NCBI GenBank assembly: GCA_028691435.1
Contig: JAQUZG010000005.1
Span: 1-51,581 of the forward strand
Source: Candidatus Iainarchaeum sp.
Lineage (GTDB): Archaea > Iainarchaeota > Iainarchaeia > Iainarchaeales > JAAZKV01
Direction of reading: 5' to 3'
DNA: 51,581 nt
Shown: one piece after another, positions 1,868 through 51,581 of the stretch
Position numbering within the stretch: the stretch's first letter is position 1
How the letters are laid out: every line of letters starts with the position of its first letter
The notes under the pieces: generated by a model
The model's database searches: none
What the model was told of the DNA's origin: nothing
Seen by the model: the letters and a program-made list of their open reading frames with translations, nothing else
Position numbers and translations under genes: made by a program

Positions 1868-3751
1868 ATGAGAGACTATGCAAAATTAGGCCTTAAAGCT
1901 GGACTTGAAATTCACCAACAGCTTGATACAAAAAAACTTTTTATTAGAACACAAAGTAATCTTTGTGAAGAAAGTGATTTTAATATAAATAGAAAATTAA
2001 GACCTGTTGCTTCTGAACTTGGAGAATATGATAAAACTGCACTTGATGCATTTAAACGAAATGAAACTTTTATATATTCTGGAAAAAAAGAAAATATTTC
2101 ACTTGTTGAACTTGATGAAGAACCACCACAACCATTAGAAAAAGAAGCACTTAAAACAGTTATTGAAGTAGCAAGTTTATGCAATTCAACAATTATTAGT
2201 GAATTACAGCCTATGAGAAAAACTGTTATTGATGGAAGTAATACAAGTGCATTTCAGAGAACTATGATGGTTGCTCTTGGCGGAGAACTTGAAATAAAAA
2301 CTGAAAATGAAACAAAAAAAATTGGAATTGAAACAATTGTTCTTGAAGAAGACGCATGTAGACCAATAAAAAAAGAAAATAATAAAATTTATTATAATTT
2401 AGATAGACTTGGAATTCCTTTAATTGAATTAGCAACTGCTCCAGATATTAAAACTCCAAAAGAAGCAGTTTTAACTGCAAAAAAAATTGGAGAAATTATG
2501 CGATTAACTGGAAGAACAAAAAGAGGAAAAGGAACAATTAGACAAGATGTAAATGTTTCAATTGCAAAAGGAAATCGTGTTGAAATTAAGGGTTGTCAAG
2601 ACCTAGAATTAATTGAAACTGTTGTTGAAAAAGAAATAGAACGACAAATAGATTTACTTGAGTATAAAGATGAATTAAATAAATTGTTTAAAACAGAAAA
2701 AGAACGAGAACAATTAATGTGTGAAATAAAAGAGATTAGTGAAATTTTTGAAAAAACAGAATGTAAATTTATAAAAGGAAAAAAAGTTTTTGGTTTTAAA
2801 TTAAATAATATGAAAGGAATGCTTGGAAGAAAAATTGGAGAAAAACGATTTGCTTCAGAATTAAGTGATTATATAAAATCAATTGGAGTTACTGGATTAT
2901 TACATTTAGATGAATTACCAAATTATGGTATAACTGAAGAAGAAGTAAATAAAATAAAAAAAGATTTAATTTGTAAAGAAAAAGATAATTTTATAATTAT
3001 TGTAACTGAAGAAAAAAAAGCTAAAGAAGCGTATGAAGTAATAAAAAATAGATTTTTTGTAGCATTTGAAAGTGTGCCAAAAGAAACAAGAGGAGCAACT
3101 GAAACTGGAGGGTCAACATATCAAAGACCTTTATCAAGTGCAGCAAGAATGTACCCAGAAACTGATATTTTAACTTGTGAAGTAGATGAAAAATATATTG
3201 ATGAAATTAAAAATAATTTACCAAAATCAATTATAGAACGAGAAAAATATTATGAAAAATTAGGTTTATCAAAAAACCATATTGACGAAATGAAACTAAA
3301 TAACTTTGCAAGATTTTTTGAAGAATTAGTTGACAAAAAATGTAATCCCATAGTTTCTGCTACTTTATTACTTCAAACTTTAACAGAATTAAAAAGAAAC
3401 AATGTTAATGCAGATTTGATAAAAAAAGAAGAAATAGAAGAATTACTTGTGCTTGAAAGTAAAGATAAGATTAATAAAAATAATTTAAAAGATGCTTTAG
3501 TAGAATTAGTTAAAGGAAAAACTATTGATGAAATAATTAAAGAAGAAGAAAAGAAAAATAATGTTGATTTAAAAGAAATAAAACCAATAATTGACAAATT
3601 TATCCAAAAAAATAAATCAGTCATTGAATTAAAAAAATTAAATGCAATTGGATCATTAATGAACTTTGCAATGCAAGACGAAAAACTAAAACAAATTGAT
3701 AAAAAAATACTAAGTGATATTTTAAGAAAAGAAATTGAAAAAGTGATTTAA
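1868..3751 (+). CDS. gatE: Glutamyl-tRNA(Gln) amidotransferase subunit E
   Basis: GLKAGLEIHQQLDTKKLF, VLEEDACR, TKRGKGTIRQDVNVSI, ETRGATETGGSTYQRPLSSAARMYPETD and a YqeY-like tail. Confidence 0.97.
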   Translation: MRDYAKLGLKAGLEIHQQLDTKKLFIRTQSNLCEESDFNINRKLRPVASELGEYDKTALDAFKRNETFIYSGKKENISLVELDEEPPQPLEKEALKTVIEVASLCNSTIISELQPMRKTVIDGSNTSAFQRTMMVALGGELEIKTENETKKIGIETIVLEEDACRPIKKENNKIYYNLDRLGIPLIELATAPDIKTPKEAVLTAKKIGEIMRLTGRTKRGKGTIRQDVNVSIAKGNRVEIKGCQDLELIETVVEKEIERQIDLLEYKDELNKLFKTEKEREQLMCEIKEISEIFEKTECKFIKGKKVFGFKLNNMKGMLGRKIGEKRFASELSDYIKSIGVTGLLHLDELPNYGITEEEVNKIKKDLICKEKDNFIIIVTEEKKAKEAYEVIKNRFFVAFESVPKETRGATETGGSTYQRPLSSAARMYPETDILTCEVDEKYIDEIKNNLPKSIIEREKYYEKLGLSKNHIDEMKLNNFARFFEELVDKKCNPIVSATLLLQTLTELKRNNVNADLIKKEEIEELLVLESKDKINKNNLKDALVELVKGKTIDEIIKEEEKKNNVDLKEIKPIIDKFIQKNKSVIELKKLNAIGSLMNFAMQDEKLKQIDKKILSDILRKEIEKVI

Positions 3752-5384: not shown

Positions 5385-6599
5385 TTATTTAGTTAATTTT
5401 ATTTTATTAATTTTATTTTTTTTAGCAGAAATTATTTCAATTTTTACATTATCAAATGTAAATTTTTCTCCGGTTTTTGGAAATCGGTCTAATTTTTCAA
5501 GTAAAAATCCAGCAATTGTATTATATTCTTTACTTTTTAAATTAATTCCAAATTCTTCATTAATTAAATCAATTTCAGTTCCGCCTTCAACAGCTATTGT
5601 TTTTTCATTAATAATTTTTAATTCATATTCATCATCTTTTTTTTCAGTTATTTCTCCAACTAGTTCTTCAAGAATATCTTCAAGAGTAATAACCCCTCTA
5701 ACACCACCATACTCTCCAATAACAATAGCAATATGAACTTTTTTTTCTTGAAATTCTTTAAGAAGAGAACCAATTTTTTTTGAAGAAGGAACAAAAAATG
5801 GCTCTTCCATTAATTTTGATATTTTAATATCTAAATTTCTGCCAATAAAATTTAATGAGTTTCTAATATTAAAAATCCCAACAATATCATCTTCATCTTT
5901 ATCATACACTGGAATTTTCGAATAAGGAGTAGATTTTAAAAATCCTTTTAATTGCCCAAGAGTTTTATTTTTTTGAATCAACACCATGTCTGTCCTAGGA
6001 GTCATTACATCTTCAACAATAACATCATCTAATCTAAAAACATTATGAATTAATTCTTTTTCATTTTTATCAATTGCTCCCTCAATGTGCCCAATTGAAA
6101 CCATTGTCCGTATTTCATCTTCAGTCAAATTTTCTTTTTTTGTACTTCCAGAAATTAAAAAAGTCATCTTTTCAAGCACAAAAGTTATTGGTGAAAAAAT
6201 AAATACTAAAAATGAAACTATTGGAGCAATAGCTAATGCATAATTAACTGCATTCTTTGAAGCAAAAGATTTTGGAGTAATTTCACCAAAAATTAAAATT
6301 AATAAAGTCATAACAAATGTTGAAATTGCCACAGAAAAATTTCCTGGAAAAATAGACATTACTAAAATAGTTGCAATTGAAGCTGAAGCAATATTTACAA
6401 TGTTATTTAAAAGCAAAATTGTAATTAAAAACTTGTCTGGAGTTGACTTTAATTTTTTAATTAAAAAAGCATTTGGATAATTTTTTTTAATTAATTTTTC
6501 AAGTTTTATTCTATCTATTGAATAAAGGGCAGTTTCAGCTGAAGAAAAAAAAGCTGAAAAAATCAACAAAATAATTAAAACAATAATTTCAAAAATCAT
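5385..6599 (-). CDS. CNNM/CorC family protein (DUF21 + CBS pair + CorC C-terminal domain)
   Basis: SAFFSSAETALYSIDR, VEDVMTPRTDMV, EYGGVRGVITLEDILEELVGEI. Confidence 0.93.
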   Translation of the reverse strand: MIFEIIVLIILLIFSAFFSSAETALYSIDRIKLEKLIKKNYPNAFLIKKLKSTPDKFLITILLLNNIVNIASASIATILVMSIFPGNFSVAISTFVMTLLILIFGEITPKSFASKNAVNYALAIAPIVSFLVFIFSPITFVLEKMTFLISGSTKKENLTEDEIRTMVSIGHIEGAIDKNEKELIHNVFRLDDVIVEDVMTPRTDMVLIQKNKTLGQLKGFLKSTPYSKIPVYDKDEDDIVGIFNIRNSLNFIGRNLDIKISKLMEEPFFVPSSKKIGSLLKEFQEKKVHIAIVIGEYGGVRGVITLEDILEELVGEITEKKDDEYELKIINEKTIAVEGGTEIDLINEEFGINLKSKEYNTIAGFLLEKLDRFPKTGEKFTFDNVKIEIISAKKNKINKIKLTK

Positions 6600-28062: not shown

Positions 28063-28812
28063 ATGAGCAATAAGAAAAAAGTGGAAAAAAAAGTAAAAAC
28101 TAATTCTAAATCTAATAAAAATTTAAAGAATCAAGAAAGAGTTAGAGTAAAAACATTTATTGTTGAAAAACCAGTTTATGTACCTTACAAAGGAAATATG
28201 TCAAGAAATATGAATGAAAATTTTAGAGAAGAAAATGAAGATTATGATTTAAATGATGAAGATAAAGAATATAATGAAAATGATGAATATTCAGTAGTAG
28301 ATTATGATTCTAGTGAAAGTAGATATAGTAAATGGAAAAAAAAGAAATCAATGGAACAATTAAAGAAAAGAAAAGAAGAAATTGAATCTTCAACAAAACA
28401 AATTTTAAATGGAAAAAATAATCAAATGAAAAAAAATGCCGAAATGATTTATGGAAATCCTGACAATGAAGAAGAAATAGATGATCGAGAATTAGATGAA
28501 GAAAATTATGCTGAATCAAATGATTTAGACCCCCCTATTGAAGATGAAGAAAATTATCAAGAAGTTATTCCAAGACAAACCCAACGAATTAGAAGTAATG
28601 GATTATTTAATAATAAGTGGTGGGTTAAAGGAATCATAAAAGGATTTTTAATTTGGGCAGCAATTTATTTAGTTATTTTGTTTCTTCAAGTTTTAAAATT
28701 AGTTTCTATTGAAAATCCAAATTTTTGGATATTATGGTTAATTATGTTAACTTTAACTATGGCATCAATAGAAAAGATAACTGAAAATATAAAAAATAAA
28801 AAGTTGTTTTAA
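28063..28812 (+). CDS. Highly charged protein with C-terminal TM helices
   Basis: Acidic/basic low-complexity N-terminus, then two hydrophobic segments at the C-terminus. Confidence 0.65.
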   Translation: MSNKKKVEKKVKTNSKSNKNLKNQERVRVKTFIVEKPVYVPYKGNMSRNMNENFREENEDYDLNDEDKEYNENDEYSVVDYDSSESRYSKWKKKKSMEQLKKRKEEIESSTKQILNGKNNQMKKNAEMIYGNPDNEEEIDDRELDEENYAESNDLDPPIEDEENYQEVIPRQTQRIRSNGLFNNKWWVKGIIKGFLIWAAIYLVILFLQVLKLVSIENPNFWILWLIMLTLTMASIEKITENIKNKKLF

Positions 28813-29054
28813 ATTAATTTTTTTGATTTTAAAACTTCTTCTATTTTTGCTCTATCAAAACCAATAATTATTTCATCATCAATTTCAATAACTGGAACAC
28901 CAGATTGCCCACTTTTTTCAATCATTTTTTTTGCTTTATCATGATCAATTCCAACATTGATATCTTCATAAGAAACTTTTTTTGATTTTAGCCAATCTTT
29001 AACCATAACACAGTACGGACACATTGTTGTAGAATAAACAATAATTTTAGACAT
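28809..29054 (-). CDS. Glutaredoxin-like protein
   Basis: VYSTTMCPYCVMVKDWLKSKKVSYEDINV...SGQSGVPVIEIDDEIIIGFD. Confidence 0.93.
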   Translation of the reverse strand: MSKIIVYSTTMCPYCVMVKDWLKSKKVSYEDINVGIDHDKAKKMIEKSGQSGVPVIEIDDEIIIGFDRAKIEEVLKSKKLI

Positions 29055-29126
29055 ATAACATCACCTAAATAATAGGGAATAAAAGAAATATAAAAGTAAT
29101 TGATAAAATGAAAAAAAGTTTGTTTT

Positions 29127-29235
29127 TGGGAGCAGAGGGGGTGTCACAAATAACATGTGTTGGTACTCTAACCGAGTTAAGTTACACCCCGTAACTCTTT
29201 TCACATAGTTTTTCTATGCATAATTATAGTTATGA
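29127..29235. ncRNA. Candidate structured RNA or tRNA-like element (strand unresolved)
   Basis: GC-enriched island in a very AT-rich intergenic region; GGGGTGT (29138-29144) pairs with ACACCCC (29184-29190); minus strand between them contains a tRNA D-arm-like CTTAACTCGGTTAGAGTA; adjacent CATAG-TTTTT-CTATG hairpin (29204-29218). Confidence 0.35.
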
Positions 29236-29327
29236 TGCCCTAGTTAATAAAAATTATTGTTTTAAAAGCAAACTAAAAAATCAAAAAAAGTTAGTAAAAT
29301 ATATCATTAAAATTAGATAAAAATAGA

Positions 29328-30032
29328 CTATTTTTTAAAAATTTTTAGACAAATATTTGAATTATTATCAAATTTTTTATTTAGAAAACAATTATCACAT
29401 TTTGGATTTATTGCTGTGCATAAATTTCTTCCATGTGTAATAAATAGTTTATTTATATTTGGCCAATCAATTTTCTTATAAATTTTTTTTAAGTCTTTTT
29501 CAACATCATTTGCATTTTTAGATTTTGATAAACCAAATCTTCTTGACAATCTAAATACATGAGTATCAACAGCAATGCCCTCAACAATCCCTTTATTTAA
29601 TAAAATTAAATTCGCTGTTTTTCTTCCAACCCCTGGTAAAGAAATTAAATCAGACATATTAAGTGGAATCTTTGAATTAAATTTCGATTTAATTATTAAA
29701 AAGCAAGAAATAATGTTTTTTGCTTTTTGTTTATAAAACCCAGTGGAATAAATTTCTTTTTCAAAAACTTGCTTTTTTGCATTAGCAAAATCATTTACGG
29801 TTTTATATTTTTTAAATAATTTTTTTGTAACTTTATTTATCTGGTTATCTGTGCTTTGTGCTGAAAGAATAATCGCCACTAGCATTTGTGCATCAGTAGA
29901 ATAATTTAAAAATAAATTTGGAACAAATCCATAATTTTTTTTAAGTAAAAAAAGAATTTTTTTAGCTCTTAATTTTTTGTGTTCAACTAATTCCATAAAA
30001 AAAACCCAAATAATATAATAAATATTCAACAA
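29328..30032 (-). CDS. nth: Endonuclease III
   Basis: LILSAQSTD-like (VAIILSAQSTDNQINKVT), LPGVGRKTANLIL, VDTHVFRLSRR, Cys cluster CTAINPKCDNC...C; likely start at MELVEHKK. Confidence 0.92.
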   Translation of the reverse strand: MLNIYYIIWVFFMELVEHKKLRAKKILFLLKKNYGFVPNLFLNYSTDAQMLVAIILSAQSTDNQINKVTKKLFKKYKTVNDFANAKKQVFEKEIYSTGFYKQKAKNIISCFLIIKSKFNSKIPLNMSDLISLPGVGRKTANLILLNKGIVEGIAVDTHVFRLSRRFGLSKSKNANDVEKDLKKIYKKIDWPNINKLFITHGRNLCTAINPKCDNCFLNKKFDNNSNICLKIFKK

Positions 30033-30066
30033 TTTTTTAATTTCATATTATATAAAATTAATTTAA

Positions 30067-31140
30067 TTAAAATTCAAATAATTTTTTTTGAGCTCCAAAA
30101 TCAATATTGAAGTTTGATACTTTTACCCCAATTCTACGTATCGCGAACTTATATTCATCAAGATATTCTTTTAACAATAAATATTCAATTTCTTTAAGTT
30201 TTGAGACAGAAATAAAATCATTAATTGTTTTAGATTTTGTAATTGTTTCAAATTTTGAATTAATAATAATTAACGAACAAGTTCTAAAAGATTTTTTTGA
30301 TTTGTTAACTTCAACAGATATTAAATCACACATAAGATAAAGAGTTGGTAAAATTTCTTCTAAAATAAGCGAATCTTTTTTTAAAGTCATTAATTTTGAG
30401 ATTTGTTGTTTTTCTCTATTTGAAATAACTAATCTATCATCAACTCCATTTACAAAAGAAAAAAAAGTTTTTGCTTTTGCTTGACCAAGAATAACAATTA
30501 ATTCGTCTAAAGATTTATTATTTAAATCAAGAATTTGCTTTACTCCAATTTTGTTTAAATTATCTTTTATTTTTTCACCAACCCCTGGAAGTAAGTCAAT
30601 AGGTTTATTTTTTAAATAATTTAAATAATCTGGCTTTTTTATAACATATAATCCATCAGGTTTTTTTTCATTAGATGCCATTTTTGCTAAAAATTTATTA
30701 AATGAAATCCCAACTGAACAAGTTAACCCAGTTTCTGATTTTATTCTTTCTTTAATTTTTTTTACAATTTCAACTGATTTATCAAAACCTTCATTATTAG
30801 TCAAATCGATATATGCTTCATCTATAGAAACTTGTTCAACATTTTCTAAAAAATAATCAATTATTTCAAAAACTTTTTTTGAAATTTCTTCATAATAATC
30901 TTTATCTGATTTTATAAACACAGTATTTTTATCAGCTAATCTTTTTGCAAGACTAAAAGGCATACCTGAAGAAATTTTTAGTTTTCTTGCTAAATAATTA
31001 GAAGTTGCAACTACTCCACTCCCCTCTCTAATTGTTTCCACAAAAATAACAACAGGCTTGTTTTTTAATTCAGGATTTTTTATAATTTCACACTGAGCAT
31101 AAAAATAATCAATGTCAATTAACCCAATTATCTTATCCAT
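30067..31140 (-). CDS. dinB: DNA polymerase IV (Y family)
   Basis: GLIDIDYFYAQCE, SIDEAYIDLT, CSVGISFNKFLAKMASNEKKPDG, LPGVGEKIKDNL; C-terminal PIP-like QKKLFEF. Confidence 0.95.
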   Translation of the reverse strand: MDKIIGLIDIDYFYAQCEIIKNPELKNKPVVIFVETIREGSGVVATSNYLARKLKISSGMPFSLAKRLADKNTVFIKSDKDYYEEISKKVFEIIDYFLENVEQVSIDEAYIDLTNNEGFDKSVEIVKKIKERIKSETGLTCSVGISFNKFLAKMASNEKKPDGLYVIKKPDYLNYLKNKPIDLLPGVGEKIKDNLNKIGVKQILDLNNKSLDELIVILGQAKAKTFFSFVNGVDDRLVISNREKQQISKLMTLKKDSLILEEILPTLYLMCDLISVEVNKSKKSFRTCSLIIINSKFETITKSKTINDFISVSKLKEIEYLLLKEYLDEYKFAIRRIGVKVSNFNIDFGAQKKLFEF

Positions 31141-34697: not shown

Positions 34698-34804
34698 AAT
34701 TTATAATTAGTGGAGGTTATTAAATAAATTTCGGTTGAAAAGAAAAAAATGTCCTAAAATAAGTGAGAAATTAATTTATTAAATTAACTTAATATATAAT
34801 AATT

Positions 34805-37452: not shown

Positions 37453-37832
37453 TTAATTTTAGCTAGTGGTCCAACGTGAATTATTTTTAAAGTAATTAAT
37501 TTTCTATATAATGTCACAACACTTGATTGGGTTGTGCCTTGGTTATTTAATTTAAAATTTATTTGTTTAGCTTTTTTTGAAAGATTAAGCGATAATTCTT
37601 CAACACCAAGCAAATTATTTTTTTGTAATTCTAAAATTATTTCAGTTGCAAGTGCTTGTTCTCTTGGACTTAATTTAGAATGTAAAATCAAATCAATTGC
37701 ATTTGGTTTAGGAACTTTGATTTTAACTTTTGGAGTAGGCAATCTTTTTTTTCGAAAATTTGGTTTTTCACCAAACATTTTTCGTCTTGAACTAAAAGGA
37801 TCCATTCCAACTGCACGATATATTTTACCCAT
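37449..37832 (-). CDS. Hypothetical archaeal basic protein, possible wHTH at C-terminus
   Basis: Intact ORF; pattern QALATEIILELQKNNLLGVEELSLNLSKKAKQ...VVTLYRKLITLKII. Confidence 0.6.
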   Translation of the reverse strand: MGKIYRAVGMDPFSSRRKMFGEKPNFRKKRLPTPKVKIKVPKPNAIDLILHSKLSPREQALATEIILELQKNNLLGVEELSLNLSKKAKQINFKLNNQGTTQSSVVTLYRKLITLKIIHVGPLAKIN

Positions 37833-37882
37833 AACAAGATAAACAATTCAACAATTATTAAACTTTTCTAATTCTAAACTAT

Positions 37883-38650
37883 TTGATAAACATGTTATAT
37901 TTAATTGGAATTGGACTTAAACCTAGTCACTTGACAATAGAAGCAAAAGAAGCTTTACAAAAGTGTGATGAAATATATCTTGAAGAATACACTAGTCAAT
38001 ATTCACAAGGTCATTTAGATGAACTTAAACAAATCATTGAAAAAGAATTTAAAGTAATAAATCGAATAGAAACTGAAGAATCATTACCTGAAAAATTAAT
38101 GATTGCAAAAGATAAAAATATCGCATTAATGATTTTTGGAAATGCATTAACTGCAACAACACACATTCAATTTTTACTTGATGCAAAAGAAAAAGGAATC
38201 AAAATAAAAATTATCCCTGGCATTTCAATTACAAATTACATTGCTGAATCTGGACTTGATGAGTATAAATTTGGCAGAACTGTAACAATTTGCTACCAAT
38301 TAGATAATTTTAAACCAGAATCATTTTATCATCAAATAAAAGAAAATCAAAAAAATGGATTACATACACTTTGTTTACTTGATATTAAAAAAGATCAAAG
38401 TCCAACAAGATTAATGAATTGTAAAGAAGCAATTGAAATTATCAATGAAATTGAAAAAAGACACAATGAAGAAAATAATTTTAATTATATTGGATTAGTT
38501 TGCATGGGATCAGACAATCAAAAAATAATTATTGGAAAAGAAAAAATAATCAATAGTTGTGAAGTAGAAAAATTATATCCACAAACTTTAATTATTAGTG
38601 GAAAAATAAATGAAAAAGAAAAAGAATGTCTTGAAAATTTATATAATTAA
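37883..38650 (+). CDS. dphB: Diphthine synthase
   Basis: LYLIGIGLKPSHLTIEAKEALQKCDEIYLEEYTS; GNALTATTH; KIIPGISITNYI. Confidence 0.95.
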   Translation: MINMLYLIGIGLKPSHLTIEAKEALQKCDEIYLEEYTSQYSQGHLDELKQIIEKEFKVINRIETEESLPEKLMIAKDKNIALMIFGNALTATTHIQFLLDAKEKGIKIKIIPGISITNYIAESGLDEYKFGRTVTICYQLDNFKPESFYHQIKENQKNGLHTLCLLDIKKDQSPTRLMNCKEAIEIINEIEKRHNEENNFNYIGLVCMGSDNQKIIIGKEKIINSCEVEKLYPQTLIISGKINEKEKECLENLYN

Positions 38651-45773: not shown

Positions 45774-45800
45774 AACTTTTTTTACAGCAAGTTTGTATCT

Positions 45801-45872
45801 AGGCCTGTAGTATAGTGGATAGTATAGCTCACTCCTAATGAGTAGACCCGGGTCCAATTCCCGGCGGGCCTG
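45801..45872 (+). tRNA. tRNA-Arg (anticodon CCU)
   Basis: AGGCCTG/CGGGCCT acceptor, GCTCA-CTCCTAA-TGAGT anticodon arm, CCGGG-TCCAATT-CCCGG T-arm, discriminator G. Confidence 0.9.
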
Positions 45873-45882
45873 TAAAAAATTT
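45866..45882 (+). repeat. att-like imperfect direct repeat, left copy (gggcctgtaaaaaattt), overlapping the tRNA-Arg 3' end
   Basis: 15/17 identity with 46977-46993. Confidence 0.45.
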
Positions 45883-46063
45883 GGGAATCCAAACACTTTG
45901 CTAAATGGTTTGCAGGTTAACATTCCACTCAGAGATGATTTTTTCTAAAACTTTTTTTAAATTAAATCTAATCATTAATCGCTATCGGCAAGATGATTAT
46001 GAAAAGTTTAAATTATGAATCTTAAATGAGTATAATAGAATTATTTGATTAAAGTGATTATTA

Positions 46064-46897
46064 ATGGACGAAAATACAGCACTGGTAGTTTTTCAAGATA
46101 AAAAAATAAGAAGAACATGGCATAATGAAGAATGGTGGTTTGTTCTTGAAGATATTGTTTTTGCATTAACTGACTCAAATGACACTAAACAATATATTAA
46201 TCGGATGCGACAAAGAGATGAAGAATTATCCAAAGGGTGGATACAAATTGTACATACCCTTTCAATCCAAACTTCTGGGGGAAAGCAACAAATGAATTGT
46301 ACCAATACAGAAGGCGCTTTTAGAATCATTCAATCAATTCCATCACCAAAGGCAGAACCATTTAAATTATGGTTGGCAAAAACAGGTTATGAAAGAGTGC
46401 AAGAAATACAAGATCCTGAATTAGCCCAAAAAAGAATGAGAGAAATTTACAAGGCAAAAGGATATTCAGAAGACTGGATAGAGAAAAGAGTTAGAGGGAT
46501 AATTATAAGACAAGAACTAACTGATGAATGGGAAAAAAGAGGAGTGAAAGAGGAAAAAGAATATGGCATTTTAACAAACGAAATAAGTAGAGCAACTTTT
46601 GGAAAAACAGTGCAAGAATACAAAGAATTTAAACAATTAAAAAAAGAAAATCTTAGAGATCACATGAATGATTTAGAATTAATTTTTTCTATGCTTGGAG
46701 AAAGATCAACAACCGAAATTGCACGAGTAAAAGACGCACAAGGTTTTGATGAAAATAAAATTGCTGCAAATAAAGGCGGAAAAATAGCGGGTGACGCAAG
46801 AAAGAATCTTGAAATAGAAACTGGAAGAAAAGTAACCACTGGCGAAAACTACTTAACAGAACTAGAAAAAGAGAAAAGAAAAAAAATGATTAAATGA
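46064..46897 (+). CDS. BRO-N domain (phage antirepressor-like) protein
   Basis: ALVVFQDKKIRRTWHNEEWWFVLEDIVFALTDSNDTKQYINRM...CTNTEGAFRIIQSIPSPKAEPFKLWLAKTGYERVQEIQDPELA. Confidence 0.92.
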   Translation: MDENTALVVFQDKKIRRTWHNEEWWFVLEDIVFALTDSNDTKQYINRMRQRDEELSKGWIQIVHTLSIQTSGGKQQMNCTNTEGAFRIIQSIPSPKAEPFKLWLAKTGYERVQEIQDPELAQKRMREIYKAKGYSEDWIEKRVRGIIIRQELTDEWEKRGVKEEKEYGILTNEISRATFGKTVQEYKEFKQLKKENLRDHMNDLELIFSMLGERSTTEIARVKDAQGFDENKIAANKGGKIAGDARKNLEIETGRKVTTGENYLTELEKEKRKKMIK

Positions 46898-46976
46898 AAT
46901 CAATTTAAACATATTAATATACACTCACGTAAAAACAATAAGACTAGAATAATGTCTGAAATTAAGAAAATTCATA

Positions 46977-46993
46977 GGGGCTGTAAATAATTT
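46977..46993 (+). repeat. att-like imperfect direct repeat, right copy (ggggctgtaaataattt)
   Basis: 15/17 identity with 45866-45882. Confidence 0.4.
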
Positions 46994-47025
46994 TTTAATT
47001 TTAAAAACTAATTTATAAATAGTAA

Positions 47026-47592
47026 TTGACTAAATCTTTTATGCCTTTAAATAATAAAGTTAAAATTCTGCTTCTTGGTGGAAACATTTGGTTTTTTGGA
47101 GAAGGATTACTTGGCCCACTTTTTGCTATTTTTGCACAAAGAATTGGTGGAGATATTCTTGATATTTCTTATGCTTGGGCAATTTATTTAATTTTTGCTG
47201 GAATTTTATTTATTTTAGTTGGAAAAATAATTGATAAATATGGACATAAAGAAAAGATAATGATTGGAGGTTATGCACTTAACACAATTTGTACTTTTGG
47301 ATATTTGTTTGTATCTAACCCACTACAATTATTTATTATTCAAGCATTACTTGGAATTGCTGATGCAATGGCTACACCAACTTGGGATTCATTATACTCA
47401 AAATATGATAATACTGTATCATCTGGTCTTCAATGGGGTTTGTCTGGAGGACTTGAAAAAATAGTTACTGGTGCGGCAGTGCTTGTTGGCGGGTATATTA
47501 TTGTTTTTGGATCATTTACAACTTTATTTATTATTATGGGTTCAATACAACTTATTGCAACAATTGTTCAAGCACGAATATTAGTAAAATAA
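47026..47592 (+). CDS. Half-length MFS-like transporter (about 6 TM); start probably ATG 47041
   Basis: Six hydrophobic segments with VGKIIDKYGHKEKIMIGG motif A; no second half follows. Confidence 0.78.
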   Translation: MTKSFMPLNNKVKILLLGGNIWFFGEGLLGPLFAIFAQRIGGDILDISYAWAIYLIFAGILFILVGKIIDKYGHKEKIMIGGYALNTICTFGYLFVSNPLQLFIIQALLGIADAMATPTWDSLYSKYDNTVSSGLQWGLSGGLEKIVTGAAVLVGGYIIVFGSFTTLFIIMGSIQLIATIVQARILVK

Positions 47593-47609
47593 TTAGAAAA
47601 AAATAAAAT

Positions 47610-49064
47610 TTAAGATTTTGATTCTTTAATTTTATTTTCTTTTTTTGAAAAAAACTTTATTGCATCAGCTAATTCTTTGTGAGTTTTAGCATATTTATTA
47701 ATATCAATTTTTTTTGTATAAGCATCACAAGCTTGAATTAGTGCTTTTGCACCAGCCTGTGTTCCTTTTGGGTGAGCATGAACTCCAGCCCCCATTGTTG
47801 TAATAAAATCCACAGAATTCATTACATCAATAAAAGGTTTAAGTAAAACTGGGTTTAATCCGCCTGAAACTATTGGTGCACACTTTTTCATCCCTCTCCA
47901 ACTATCATCATCAAGGATTATATGGTGAGTCAAGTCACGATGAACTAAATTTATTGCATCAGCGTCATTTTCTGGTATTTTTGACCAAGATTGTTCAAAA
48001 AAGTGACCTTTATCACTAAAATTTACAATATTATGGGCTGCAACCACATCTTCTTTTGGTGAGCCTTGCATTTTACCAACACCAGCTGTCCCAGTATGAA
48101 TTCCTGAAGCCCCCGCAATTCTAGCAAATTTTGATAATACTAAAACACTAAACCCAAATGGATTTTCTGGTCTAGTAAATGCCCCATGTGCTGCTCGATG
48201 AAAATGAATAAAAGTATTAGGATATCTTCTTCTTAAAGTTTGAACAGCCATCCAACCAGCAGTTATTCCATCAATTAAAAATGCATAACTTCCTTCTTCA
48301 AATCCCGCCCCCCTAATTAATTCACACCGTTTTATCATTGTGTCAAAATCGGATGCAGAAACATTAAATGAATGCACTTTTTTGTGGCCTGTTTTTTTTA
48401 CAGCTTTATCCATTGCTTCTTTTACATGTTTTACCATTTTTTCATATGGACAAAAATCTTGATCAGCTTGAGGTTCATCATTTTTTACAAAGTCTCCCCC
48501 ACCAACCCAAAAATCGTAAGCTACTTCAGCATATTCTGCAGAAGTTAATCCCATTTTTGGTTTTACAATTGTACCAAGAATTGGTCTATTATAAACTCCT
48601 AAATATTTTCGCATATCATCTAATGTATAAGATGGCCCATCAAATTGTTCAAGCATTGCTGGTGGGAACCACACATCCAAAAGTTTTAATGCACTAACTT
48701 CTTTCATACCAAGCACATTTCCTACGATATAAGTTAAAATATTTTGAACATTTCCTATTCGATCAAATAGTCTCCAAGGATAAGCTATCCAAACTAAATT
48801 TTGTTTTAAATCAACTTGATAAATTAAAGCATTCATTTCTCTTGAAAATGGTGTTTCAGTATTTACTTTAAAATTTGTTCCAGTAGATGATTCTGCAGCA
48901 ACTTCAGCAGCCGCTTGAAGAATATTTAATTTTTCACCAGGTAACAAATGAAAAACACATAATAAATATTCTCCATTTTTCACATCTGGAATTTTAAAAT
49001 CTGTATAAGCCTTTTGTTTAGGATTAAGAGTTTTAATTAAACTATTTAATTTTGCAGACACCAT
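47610..49064 (-). CDS. rbcL: RuBisCO large subunit, form II/III-like
   Basis: GTIVKPKMGL, GGGDFVKNDEPQADQDFCPYEKMV, HFHRAAHGAFTR, SGIHTGTAGVGKMQG, SGGLNPVL. Confidence 0.95.
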   Translation of the reverse strand: MVSAKLNSLIKTLNPKQKAYTDFKIPDVKNGEYLLCVFHLLPGEKLNILQAAAEVAAESSTGTNFKVNTETPFSREMNALIYQVDLKQNLVWIAYPWRLFDRIGNVQNILTYIVGNVLGMKEVSALKLLDVWFPPAMLEQFDGPSYTLDDMRKYLGVYNRPILGTIVKPKMGLTSAEYAEVAYDFWVGGGDFVKNDEPQADQDFCPYEKMVKHVKEAMDKAVKKTGHKKVHSFNVSASDFDTMIKRCELIRGAGFEEGSYAFLIDGITAGWMAVQTLRRRYPNTFIHFHRAAHGAFTRPENPFGFSVLVLSKFARIAGASGIHTGTAGVGKMQGSPKEDVVAAHNIVNFSDKGHFFEQSWSKIPENDADAINLVHRDLTHHIILDDDSWRGMKKCAPIVSGGLNPVLLKPFIDVMNSVDFITTMGAGVHAHPKGTQAGAKALIQACDAYTKKIDINKYAKTHKELADAIKFFSKKENKIKESKS

Positions 49065-49217
49065 TTTATCACCATTTAATCTAAGTATAAACTGATTTTG
49101 ATATTTATAAAGATTGCTTTAAATAAAAAATCTAAATCAATTAAATTAATTTATAAAAAAAAGCTAATTAAATTAATTTAAAATAAAAAAATTAGTGGTT
49201 TAATTAAACCACTAAAA

Positions 49218-49967
49218 CTAGTTTGGTAAAGCTGGCGGTGCAGTCACAGTCGCATTGTCAGAGTTCAAAATACAATCATTTGAAACTTTGACAACAATTG
49301 GTGTTCCAATTCCAGCTTCATTTATTGAATAACCCCAAGATTGAGTTGCAAAAGATATTCCTTGAGTAGAATTTGTAAAACTCCAGTTTTGCTTTTGAGA
49401 ATCCCAAACATTAGCATTTAACACACTACAATTTTTTAAAATATCTTTTAATTCTTTTCCAATCATCCAAGGAGAAAGTTGAATAAAATTCCAACCAGCT
49501 TTTAACTGTTTTTTATCTAATATTTCTTGAATATTCATTGAAGAATCAATCCAATTAGAACCATATTTCGCTTTTGATTGACAATTTCCTGTTGAATATA
49601 TCCACATAGCTCCTAACTCAATGACTCCATAATAAGGATTATCTTTATTACCCCAATTGAATTCTTCATTAATTATTTTTGTAAAAATTGATTCATTTGG
49701 AAAAAATGTGCCTAAATTTGAATTTGATGAAGACAATCCATATTTACCAACATATTGTTTATTTATTGTAGAATAATAAAACATTGATTGAATTAAATCA
49801 TAACAACCTGATTGATCACCATAACTATTAATCATTGGAACCAAATTCCAACCTTTTACAATTGGAATTGTTATCTCCTGAGTTGTTGAACTATAATCTC
49901 CTGCAAATACCATCGAACTAATCATTAAAATTATTAAAACTAAAATCATTTTTCTCATATTTTTCAC
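49218..49967 (-). CDS. Secreted protein with two GWN-type repeats and C-terminal PPALPN
   Basis: Signal peptide MKNMRKMILVLIILMISSMVFAG; KGWNLVPMI... and KAGWNFIQLSPW... repeats. Confidence 0.75.
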   Translation of the reverse strand: MKNMRKMILVLIILMISSMVFAGDYSSTTQEITIPIVKGWNLVPMINSYGDQSGCYDLIQSMFYYSTINKQYVGKYGLSSSNSNLGTFFPNESIFTKIINEEFNWGNKDNPYYGVIELGAMWIYSTGNCQSKAKYGSNWIDSSMNIQEILDKKQLKAGWNFIQLSPWMIGKELKDILKNCSVLNANVWDSQKQNWSFTNSTQGISFATQSWGYSINEAGIGTPIVVKVSNDCILNSDNATVTAPPALPN

Positions 49968-49969
49968 CC

Positions 49970-50167
49970 CTACTCCGGCAATGCTGGAGGCATAGGAATT
50001 TGCTCACTAACATTTCCACTTTGATTATTATTACTAGAATTATCTACTACTGGATTAACCGCAGAATTATTATTTAAATTATTATTTTCATTTGTTTTTT
50101 CAGTACAACCAAAAAATAAACCAGTCAAAACCAAACAAAAAAACAAAACAACTAAAAACTTATTCAA
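49970..50167 (-). CDS. Small lipoprotein, Asn-rich, C-terminal PPALPE
   Basis: Lipobox-like LTGLFFGC followed by a Cys-anchored Asn-rich linker. Confidence 0.68.
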   Translation of the reverse strand: MNKFLVVLFFCLVLTGLFFGCTEKTNENNNLNNNSAVNPVVDNSSNNNQSGNVSEQIPMPPALPE

Positions 50168-50203
50168 CTAAAACCACCCCTTAATTAAAAAAAGAATAAT
50201 CAA

Positions 50204-50227
50204 ATATATATATATATATATATATAT
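50204..50227. repeat. (AT)12 dinucleotide tract
   Basis: Uninterrupted AT repeat read directly. Confidence 0.95.
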
Positions 50228-50322
50228 CCAAAAAACTATTTTCAAAAAAAATAACAAAACAAATTAAATCTTGTGCATTTTTCAAAAAAAATATTTTTCA
50301 AATACACAAAATTATGAAAAGC

Positions 50323-50352
50323 TACTGACGAAATTAAATAATTTGTTTTGTA
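50323..50352 (+). repeat. 30-nt perfect direct repeat, copy 1: tactgacgaaattaaataatttgttttgta
   Basis: Identical to 51222-51251. Confidence 0.95.
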
Positions 50353-50385
50353 GAAATACTATTGGATTTCTATCTAGTCTGATTT

Positions 50386-51159
50386 TTATCTTTTTCTACT
50401 ACAAACAAAAACAATCATGGTTGGATATTTTACTCTTTTTGTATATATATCTAGATTTTCTTCCTTGTATTTCTCAGCAGGAATTGGTTCTTTTATATCT
50501 TCGATTACCAAACCTGCTTTTTTGATACATTCAACATAATCTTCTATCATCCAATGAAAATCAGTAAACGCAAGGTAACCTTTAGTTTTGCTTTTATAAT
50601 TTATTTTTAACCCCTTTTTTGAATATAAATATTCTTCATCAAAAGACCTTTTCATTGTTTCAGCATTATCTGACTCTTCAAATGTGGGGTGAGGAATTAC
50701 AATTACTAATTTTCCTGTTTTGTTTAATCTTTGACCCATGCTTTTTATAGCATCCTCAATTTTTTTCTTATTATCAAAACTTAATAAAACGAATAACGAT
50801 AAAACCCAATCAAATTCTTCTTCTAAAATAATATTTTTAGTGTCCATTATCAAATATTTTCCCAATGGATCTGAATTTTTACATCCCTCAATTGCTTTAT
50901 CCGAAATATCTATTCCCATTGTAATGGCATCCTTCTCTTTACACCTTCGAATAAAAGCACCATCTCCACAACCAGAATCAAGAATCTCTTTCCCAGAAAT
51001 ATCTCCCATTATAGAATCCAATGTAGGGAATAAAATCTGCACTTTACTACTAGTAGTTTTCCAGTTATTTCCTATCTTTATCCACTCTTCTTCTGTCATA
51101 AAGAAACAACTCTGGATTGTTTTTTTAAATCTTTGGAGTTTATTCTTGATAAATTTCAA
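50386..51159 (-). CDS. Class I SAM-dependent methyltransferase
   Basis: ILDSGCGDGAFIRRCKEKDAITMGIDISDKAI...FDWVLSLFVLLSFDNKKKIEDAIKSMGQRLNKTGKLVIVIPHP. Confidence 0.88.
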   Translation of the reverse strand: MKFIKNKLQRFKKTIQSCFFMTEEEWIKIGNNWKTTSSKVQILFPTLDSIMGDISGKEILDSGCGDGAFIRRCKEKDAITMGIDISDKAIEGCKNSDPLGKYLIMDTKNIILEEEFDWVLSLFVLLSFDNKKKIEDAIKSMGQRLNKTGKLVIVIPHPTFEESDNAETMKRSFDEEYLYSKKGLKINYKSKTKGYLAFTDFHWMIEDYVECIKKAGLVIEDIKEPIPAEKYKEENLDIYTKRVKYPTMIVFVCSRKR

Positions 51160-51221
51160 AAAATAAAAAAAAGCCTAATCAGTTAACAAACACGGTTTAG
51201 ATAAAATTTAAATTCAATAGA

Positions 51222-51251
51222 TACTGACGAAATTAAATAATTTGTTTTGTA
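51222..51251 (+). repeat. 30-nt perfect direct repeat, copy 2
   Basis: Identical to 50323-50352; 43 nt upstream of the XRE start codon. Confidence 0.95.
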
Positions 51252-51294
51252 CAATCAACGAAAGTCTTTTATTAAGTTATGATATAACATTAAT

Positions 51295-51581
51295 ATGAAT
51301 AAACTTGAAATGGCAATAGCTGGAGAAATTACTTTATCTGGTGATCCTGGAAAAAGTATGAAAAAATGGAGAGAAATATTTTCTGTTCATCAAACAGAAC
51401 TTGCCAAGCAATTAAAAATTTCTTCATCAACTATTTCTGATTATGAAGGCGGACGAAGAAAAAACCCTGGAATAAATGTTGTATCACGTTTAGTTCATAC
51501 TTTAATTGAACTAGATAAAGAAAAGGGCGGAAAAGTTGTTAAACAACTTGAAAAAGATTTTGAAGAAAAAAAAGAAAGTGC
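51295..51581 (+). CDS. XRE-family HTH transcriptional regulator (truncated by window end)
   Basis: MNKLEMAIAGEITLSGDPGKSMKKWREIFSVHQTELAKQLKISSSTISDYEGGRRKNPGINVVSRLVHTLIELDKEKGG; open to window edge. Confidence 0.88.
   Translation, partial: MNKLEMAIAGEITLSGDPGKSMKKWREIFSVHQTELAKQLKISSSTISDYEGGRRKNPGINVVSRLVHTLIELDKEKGGKVVKQLEKDFEEKKES

Follow-up and report, generated by a model that had tools for sequence, protein, structure and literature searches.

Exact 30-nt repeats around a probably inserted methyltransferase gene in Candidatus Iainarchaeum are one of several gene-edge duplications in the genome

The dif/pdif modules of Acinetobacter plasmids are single-gene units that lie between repeats of roughly 30 bp and have one recombination site in common (PMC12907356). 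There are reports of homology-facilitated illegitimate recombination from naturally competent bacteria and from conjugation in E. coli (PMC3240628), and the process has been proposed for the effector-immunity arrays of the Vibrio T6SS (PMC5361080). In integrative elements at gene or tRNA ends (att-flanked islands), the edge of a conserved gene is restored and a direct copy of it stands at the far end of the insert. Transposons, casposons included, are flanked by a direct copy of their target. Layouts of this type could also result when the template is switched in the course of repair or when staggered breaks are filled in.

Here we describe a locus of Candidatus Iainarchaeum sp. that has something of each of these systems. 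The window analysed is a whole contig (C19; 51,581 nucleotides) of a draft genome of 907,846 bp, which consists of 47 contigs with 127-bp overlaps and N gaps. Close to the end of the window, a methyltransferase gene lies between exact direct repeats, with a lipoprotein-like gene on one side and an XRE-type regulator gene on the other. The single-gene unit between repeats of about 30 bp recalls the pdif modules, and the direct copy at the other end of the inserted gene recalls both the islands and the target site duplication of transposons. The insert, in contrast to the islands, is about 1 kb, here as at the related loci described below, and contains one or two genes and no integrase. We consider it probable that the space between the lipoprotein-like gene and the XRE gene recently received the methyltransferase gene from a foreign source, and that 30 bp of the recipient edge were duplicated in the process.

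The repeat, TACTGACGAAATTAAATAATTTGTTTTGTA, is present as two exact copies on the plus strand, 899 bp apart from start to start. The initial annotation had described these copies, had judged them to be far beyond chance, and had read the one minus-strand gene between them as a SAM methyltransferase with no transposase in the segment; all of this was borne out. Dinucleotide shuffles of the window contained no match to the 30-mer at up to three mismatches, and no transposase was found among the ORFs listed for the segment. A count over the genome, which the same annotation had proposed, gave only the two copies at the methyltransferase locus at up to three mismatches, and a search of 52 relatives at the same tolerance gave none. 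In a comparison of the flanks of 756 genomic ORFs of at least 100 aa, no gene-spanning exact direct repeat was longer than the 30-mer; those next in length have 24 and 19 nt. The sequence between the copies contains no N and no contig break. The added 899 bp listed in Table 1 are described equivalently as positions 50323-51221. The left copy lies 33 bp past the stop codon of the methyltransferase gene and 155 bp upstream of the start of the lipoprotein-like gene, whose product has no Pfam match.

Table 1. Features of the methyltransferase locus, in positions of the window
Feature	Positions	Strand	Basis or remark
Lipoprotein-like small gene, left flank	49970-50167	-	ORF list; not common to relatives at this place
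Left repeat copy	50323-50352	+	Displaced duplicate of the XRE upstream element; exact match to 51222-51251
Added 899 bp (methyltransferase gene, flanks and one repeat copy)	50353-51251		Repeat spacing
Inserted class I SAM-dependent methyltransferase gene	50386-51099	-	Pfam domains; from the likely ATG
Right repeat copy	51222-51251	+	Native XRE upstream element; contains second site CTGACGAAA
Promoter-proximal element ATCAACGAAA, then TATA-like TTTTATTAA	51254-51275	+	Conserved in 30 of 30 aligned genomes
Resident XRE-type regulator gene, 5' part	51295-51581	+	PF12844 and PF01381 over cut-off

The Pfam match of the enclosed gene is to Methyltransf_11/25, with 37.9 bits for PF08241 (cut-off 21.2) and 36.7 bits for PF13649 (cut-off 27), and PF13489, PF08242, and PF13847 are likewise above their curated cut-offs. 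None of the NCBIfam equivalogs reaches its cut-off. By these domains the enzyme is classed as a class I SAM methyltransferase, and its role is probably ordinary SAM-dependent methylation, with no substrate assigned. Translation likely starts at the ATG at 51099, which is preferred because a relative of 53% identity begins there (its match runs from residue 21); a TTG at 51159 is a possible start. This relative, encoded by Candidatus Pacearchaeota archaeon Meg19_1012_Bin_253, is the sole one found in a scan of 84,980 species genomes that detects close relatives only. Within the phylum (87 genomes) the next best match is 32% identical, and in a Pacearchaeota sample of 371 genomes, Meg19_1012_Bin_253 counted, only one other genome passed the threshold, at 30% identity. 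The methyltransferases at 25-32% identity have no long flanking repeats. At 0.22-0.23, the gene's GC3 is in the 98-99th percentile (genome median, 0.11); in overall codon-usage distance the gene is not an outlier. Because of this distribution and composition, with the 53% relative found elsewhere and the raised GC3, the gene is taken to be foreign, and horizontal acquisition is the simplest reading. Viral contigs contained neither the exact 30-mer nor a relative of the methyltransferase, and a donor locus with a methyltransferase gene beside an XRE gene was not found.

In the Pacearchaeota relative, direct copies of TNTTTAAAAAGTCGYG likewise stand on both sides of the methyltransferase gene; this pattern has only three matches in that genome, all of them flanking it. 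The direct repeats unique to this locus (L133) are at 2725-2761 and 3588-3606, with a 17-nt inverted copy close to them at 3619-3635, and a proteasome beta gene adjoins.

The XRE gene runs off the window, and contig C24 (minus strand) completes a protein of 237 aa. Read in this orientation, its first 127 bp repeat the end of the window exactly (51455-51581), so that the two contigs part at a branch of the assembly graph. Close to these positions there may be a strain variant. The gene is conserved in 48 of the 53 genomes searched, nearly all of one order, and downstream of it the same genes are found in relatives. Alignment of the upstream regions of 30 genomes gave a proximal element with the consensus RATTGACGAAA, followed by the TATA-like TTTTTAA. 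A second TTGACGAAA-like site is situated 31-32 nt upstream of the proximal one in eight of the 30 genomes, including the genome studied here; scored at 8 or more of 9 matches, a second site is present in 11 of 30, compared with 1.2 expected from shuffles. In this genome the second site is at 51224-51232, which is inside the right repeat copy. Because the right copy holds the conserved second site at the conserved spacing, it is native to the regulator, and the left copy, with neither the proximal element nor the XRE gene body, is the duplicate. The conservation of the TTGACGAAA-type sites suggests that the XRE protein binds them.

Near position 5588 on the minus strand of contig C16 (L083), the XRE upstream site occurs in palindromic form, TTGACGAAACCTAATTCGTCA, 64 bp before a hydroxymethylglutaryl-CoA synthase gene. 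This placement hints at a possible role of the conserved XRE regulator in controlling the mevalonate pathway. A conserved regulatory site within the repeat, together with a similar site before the synthase gene, would also fit an account with no insertion at all, in which two XRE binding or promoter elements have been kept by selection and, for example, place the lipoprotein and methyltransferase genes under common control with the regulator. Selection on a binding site does not, however, hold 30 contiguous bases identical, and the other sites in the genome match the XRE element over only about 8-15 nt. The same structure is moreover found at serS, argS, uvrA, and leuA, where the copied edge is coding sequence, and we regard selection on two elements as very unlikely. 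The idea that the repeat is a widespread regulatory motif, raised in the initial annotation, is half right: a conserved regulatory site makes up the first part of the repeat, but no other locus has the exact 30-nt duplication.

Comparison of neighborhoods showed that the methyltransferase gene is absent upstream of XRE in relatives. An exact empty site with one copy of the repeat was not found among the relatives, because the neighboring 5.4-kb block is not common to them. This block (45874-51290) lies between tRNA-Arg(CCT), at 45800-45873, and XRE, and it is missing here in the relatives examined. It contains a BRO-like gene, a transporter, a form III-type RuBisCO, and two small secreted-type proteins. 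A tRNA gene is also found close before XRE in G003, G004, and G026. An alternative is that deletions have reduced a larger integrated element, or a tandem duplication, until one gene and two edge copies were left. Such an origin would fit the longer block next to the locus that relatives do not have in common (45.9-51.3 kb), and tandem duplication followed by deletion would give an identical layout. Against this, identity between the copies is still 100% at this locus, at uvrA, and over a stretch of 99 nt in another genome of the order (G012), so that there would have been little time for such a reduction, and a spacing of 0.5-2.3 kb, with one or two genes enclosed, is found at locus after locus. 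A remnant of this kind is therefore quite unlikely.

The recent addition of a single gene is placed in a wider setting by a self-comparison of the genome (904,684 bases), in which we collected repeat pairs scoring 50 bits or more whose copies were separated by 300-3000 bp and did not both lie in coding sequence. The survey returned 11 direct repeats and no inverted repeats, and none in a genome simulated with an order-2 Markov model; the thresholds were chosen after the first matches, there was one simulation, and the ORFs are uncurated. Pilin-like tandem paralogues on C8, a duplicated small ORF on C3, and a tRNA-like pair at C6:8951 were set aside. Without the tandem paralogues and the tRNA-like pair, eight direct repeats are left, in addition to one at argS with 46.7 bits. 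A resident gene can be identified at seven loci, including the methyltransferase locus, so that at least six other genes in the genome have the same footprint. At each of the seven the resident gene is intact, one or two genes are inserted, and a copy of the resident edge lies beyond them.

The duplicated edges are of several kinds. The promoter and 5' end of an NYN-domain gene (152 nt, 95% identity) are repeated around GNAT and NUDIX genes, and the promoter of rpl16/L10e (45 nt, 91%) is repeated around an aminotransferase gene. Codons near the start of serS (106 nt, 92%) flank a PP-loop/QueC-like gene, and the start region of argS (48 nt, 83%) flanks a gene for a 175-aa protein, the displaced copy being without the start codon. 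At leuA (49 nt, 86%) and uvrA (28 nt, exact), the 3' end has been copied, and the inserts encode a membrane-type protein and a DUF6498 protein, respectively. Thus the displaced copy has diverged at all loci but the two exact ones, XRE and uvrA. As a group, the inserted genes have a weak GC3 signal (p = 0.02, n = 10).

Relatives were compared at two of these loci. At rpl16 there are empty sites: three relatives, G003 (same genus), G005, and G006, have upstream of rpl16 the gene that is separated from it in this genome by the aminotransferase, and in none of the three does an aminotransferase intervene. The native copy of the rpl16 promoter is also more similar to the relatives than the displaced copy is. 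At argS, the inserted gene is absent from this place in every relative with enough upstream sequence.

The initial annotation had suggested an att-type duplication of a one-gene cassette. The recent one-gene insertion with duplication of its flank is well supported, but an att-type recombination site is not, since the repeat is part of the upstream control region of XRE and the repeats at the other loci are unrelated to it. In such a cassette the repeats would be attL and attR, and a tyrosine recombinase, Xer-like or other, would act in trans. The genome does contain two tyrosine recombinase genes elsewhere, edges of genes and tRNAs are typical targets of integrases, and an 11-8-11 layout with weakly inverted arms (7/11) can be read into the 30-mer. 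The insert itself has no recombinase gene, however, and the 30-mer is native regulatory DNA that is confined to this one locus. No att core shared by the repeat-flanked loci was found, and the copies, 28-156 bp long, are each taken from the local resident gene. Each locus has a duplicated sequence of its own, which speaks against a site-specific recombinase, and we consider the att-cassette reading unlikely. A dif/pdif reading of the 11-8-11 layout was dropped, the site not being common to the loci; pdif modules have one recombination site, whereas here each locus has a repeat of its own. The copies also differ from the target duplications of transposons and casposons in being long and variable rather than fixed and short. 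No transposase ORF is present, which is compatible with a transposase acting in trans, and the inverted-repeat listing, in which short ends could be missed, has no pair at the ends of the insert. The locus is not filed in any cassette or transposon family.

Three loci appeared to be linked by CTTAWTTTAGGACA, a motif that occurs about 25 times and is mostly intergenic. Given its dispersal, a Fic locus on C2 and weaker pairs on C10 and at C5:61.6 kb were not counted as clean. A dispersed motif of about the form CTYRCTTAWTTTAGGACA, mostly intergenic, is present at 34750 of the window (minus strand) and at about 25 other places.

An excess of direct over inverted repeats was also observed in other genomes. 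In 400 kb of G012, a single-contig genome of the order, there are eight direct repeats and no inverted repeats at 44 bits or above; the direct ones include a 99-nt exact copy of the 3' end of one gene around a gene for a 421-aa protein, and duplicated tRNA-like edges. Duplications of gene edges or tRNA-like edges around one to three small genes, one of them 99 nt long and exact, are situated on its contig C1 at 28589-30236, 37612-38170, and 188134-189983. In 249 kb of the Pacearchaeota genome (G087) there are 16 direct repeats versus one inverted, part of which belong to a dispersed promoter-like motif, and in 400 kb of G021, which has a GC content of 43%, there are four versus none. AT-richness alone is thus not a sufficient explanation. 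The excess is absent from the one bacterial control, E. coli K-12, where 350 kb contain no direct repeat and two inverted repeats, both of one REP-like sequence. In the literature within reach, mostly short of subscription papers, we did not find this pattern described in archaea.

The probable course of events at the methyltransferase locus would be that a single foreign gene was inserted in front of the XRE regulator and that the 30 bp of the recipient edge were duplicated during this insertion. The regulator would have kept its full upstream control region, in the right copy, with the displaced left copy staying beyond the new gene. For the genome as a whole, the best reading is that single genes acquired horizontally were added to what was there and that 28-156 bp of the recipient edge were duplicated each time, by a process that would recognize no fixed sequence, and the displaced copies would decay afterwards. 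The enzymology may be illegitimate or repair-type recombination; sequence alone is compatible with several mechanisms. Homologous recombination on one side could be combined with illegitimate joining on the other, or the duplication could arise by replicative template switching or by fill-in of staggered ends. Homology-facilitated illegitimate recombination can leave similar layouts, in which a new gene stands beside an intact anchor, the older sequence is displaced to the far side, and no integrase is needed. The seven loci have this arrangement, with the anchor gene intact and a displaced piece of the anchor region past the added gene. The reports of that process differ from the present case, where many single genes have been added at the edges of housekeeping genes in a small archaeal genome and the one-sided homology of the donor is putative.

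The repeat and the one-gene insertion are real, but it is the wider pattern that is of interest. How archaea with tiny genomes and no obvious mobile elements gain genes is an open question. If the footprint holds, recent acquisitions would carry a readable scar, consisting of an intact resident, a new gene, and a displaced edge copy; the divergence of the copies would give the time order of events, and the pattern could be counted in thousands of genomes against inverted-repeat controls. It also cautions against taking single genes flanked by repeats as integrase cassettes by default. It is a tentative, at present rather doubtful, extension that in small-genome archaea of this and related groups a common route, possibly with dedicated machinery, places single genes at the edges of housekeeping and tRNA genes, duplicating about 25-150 bp and leaving scars that may be dated.
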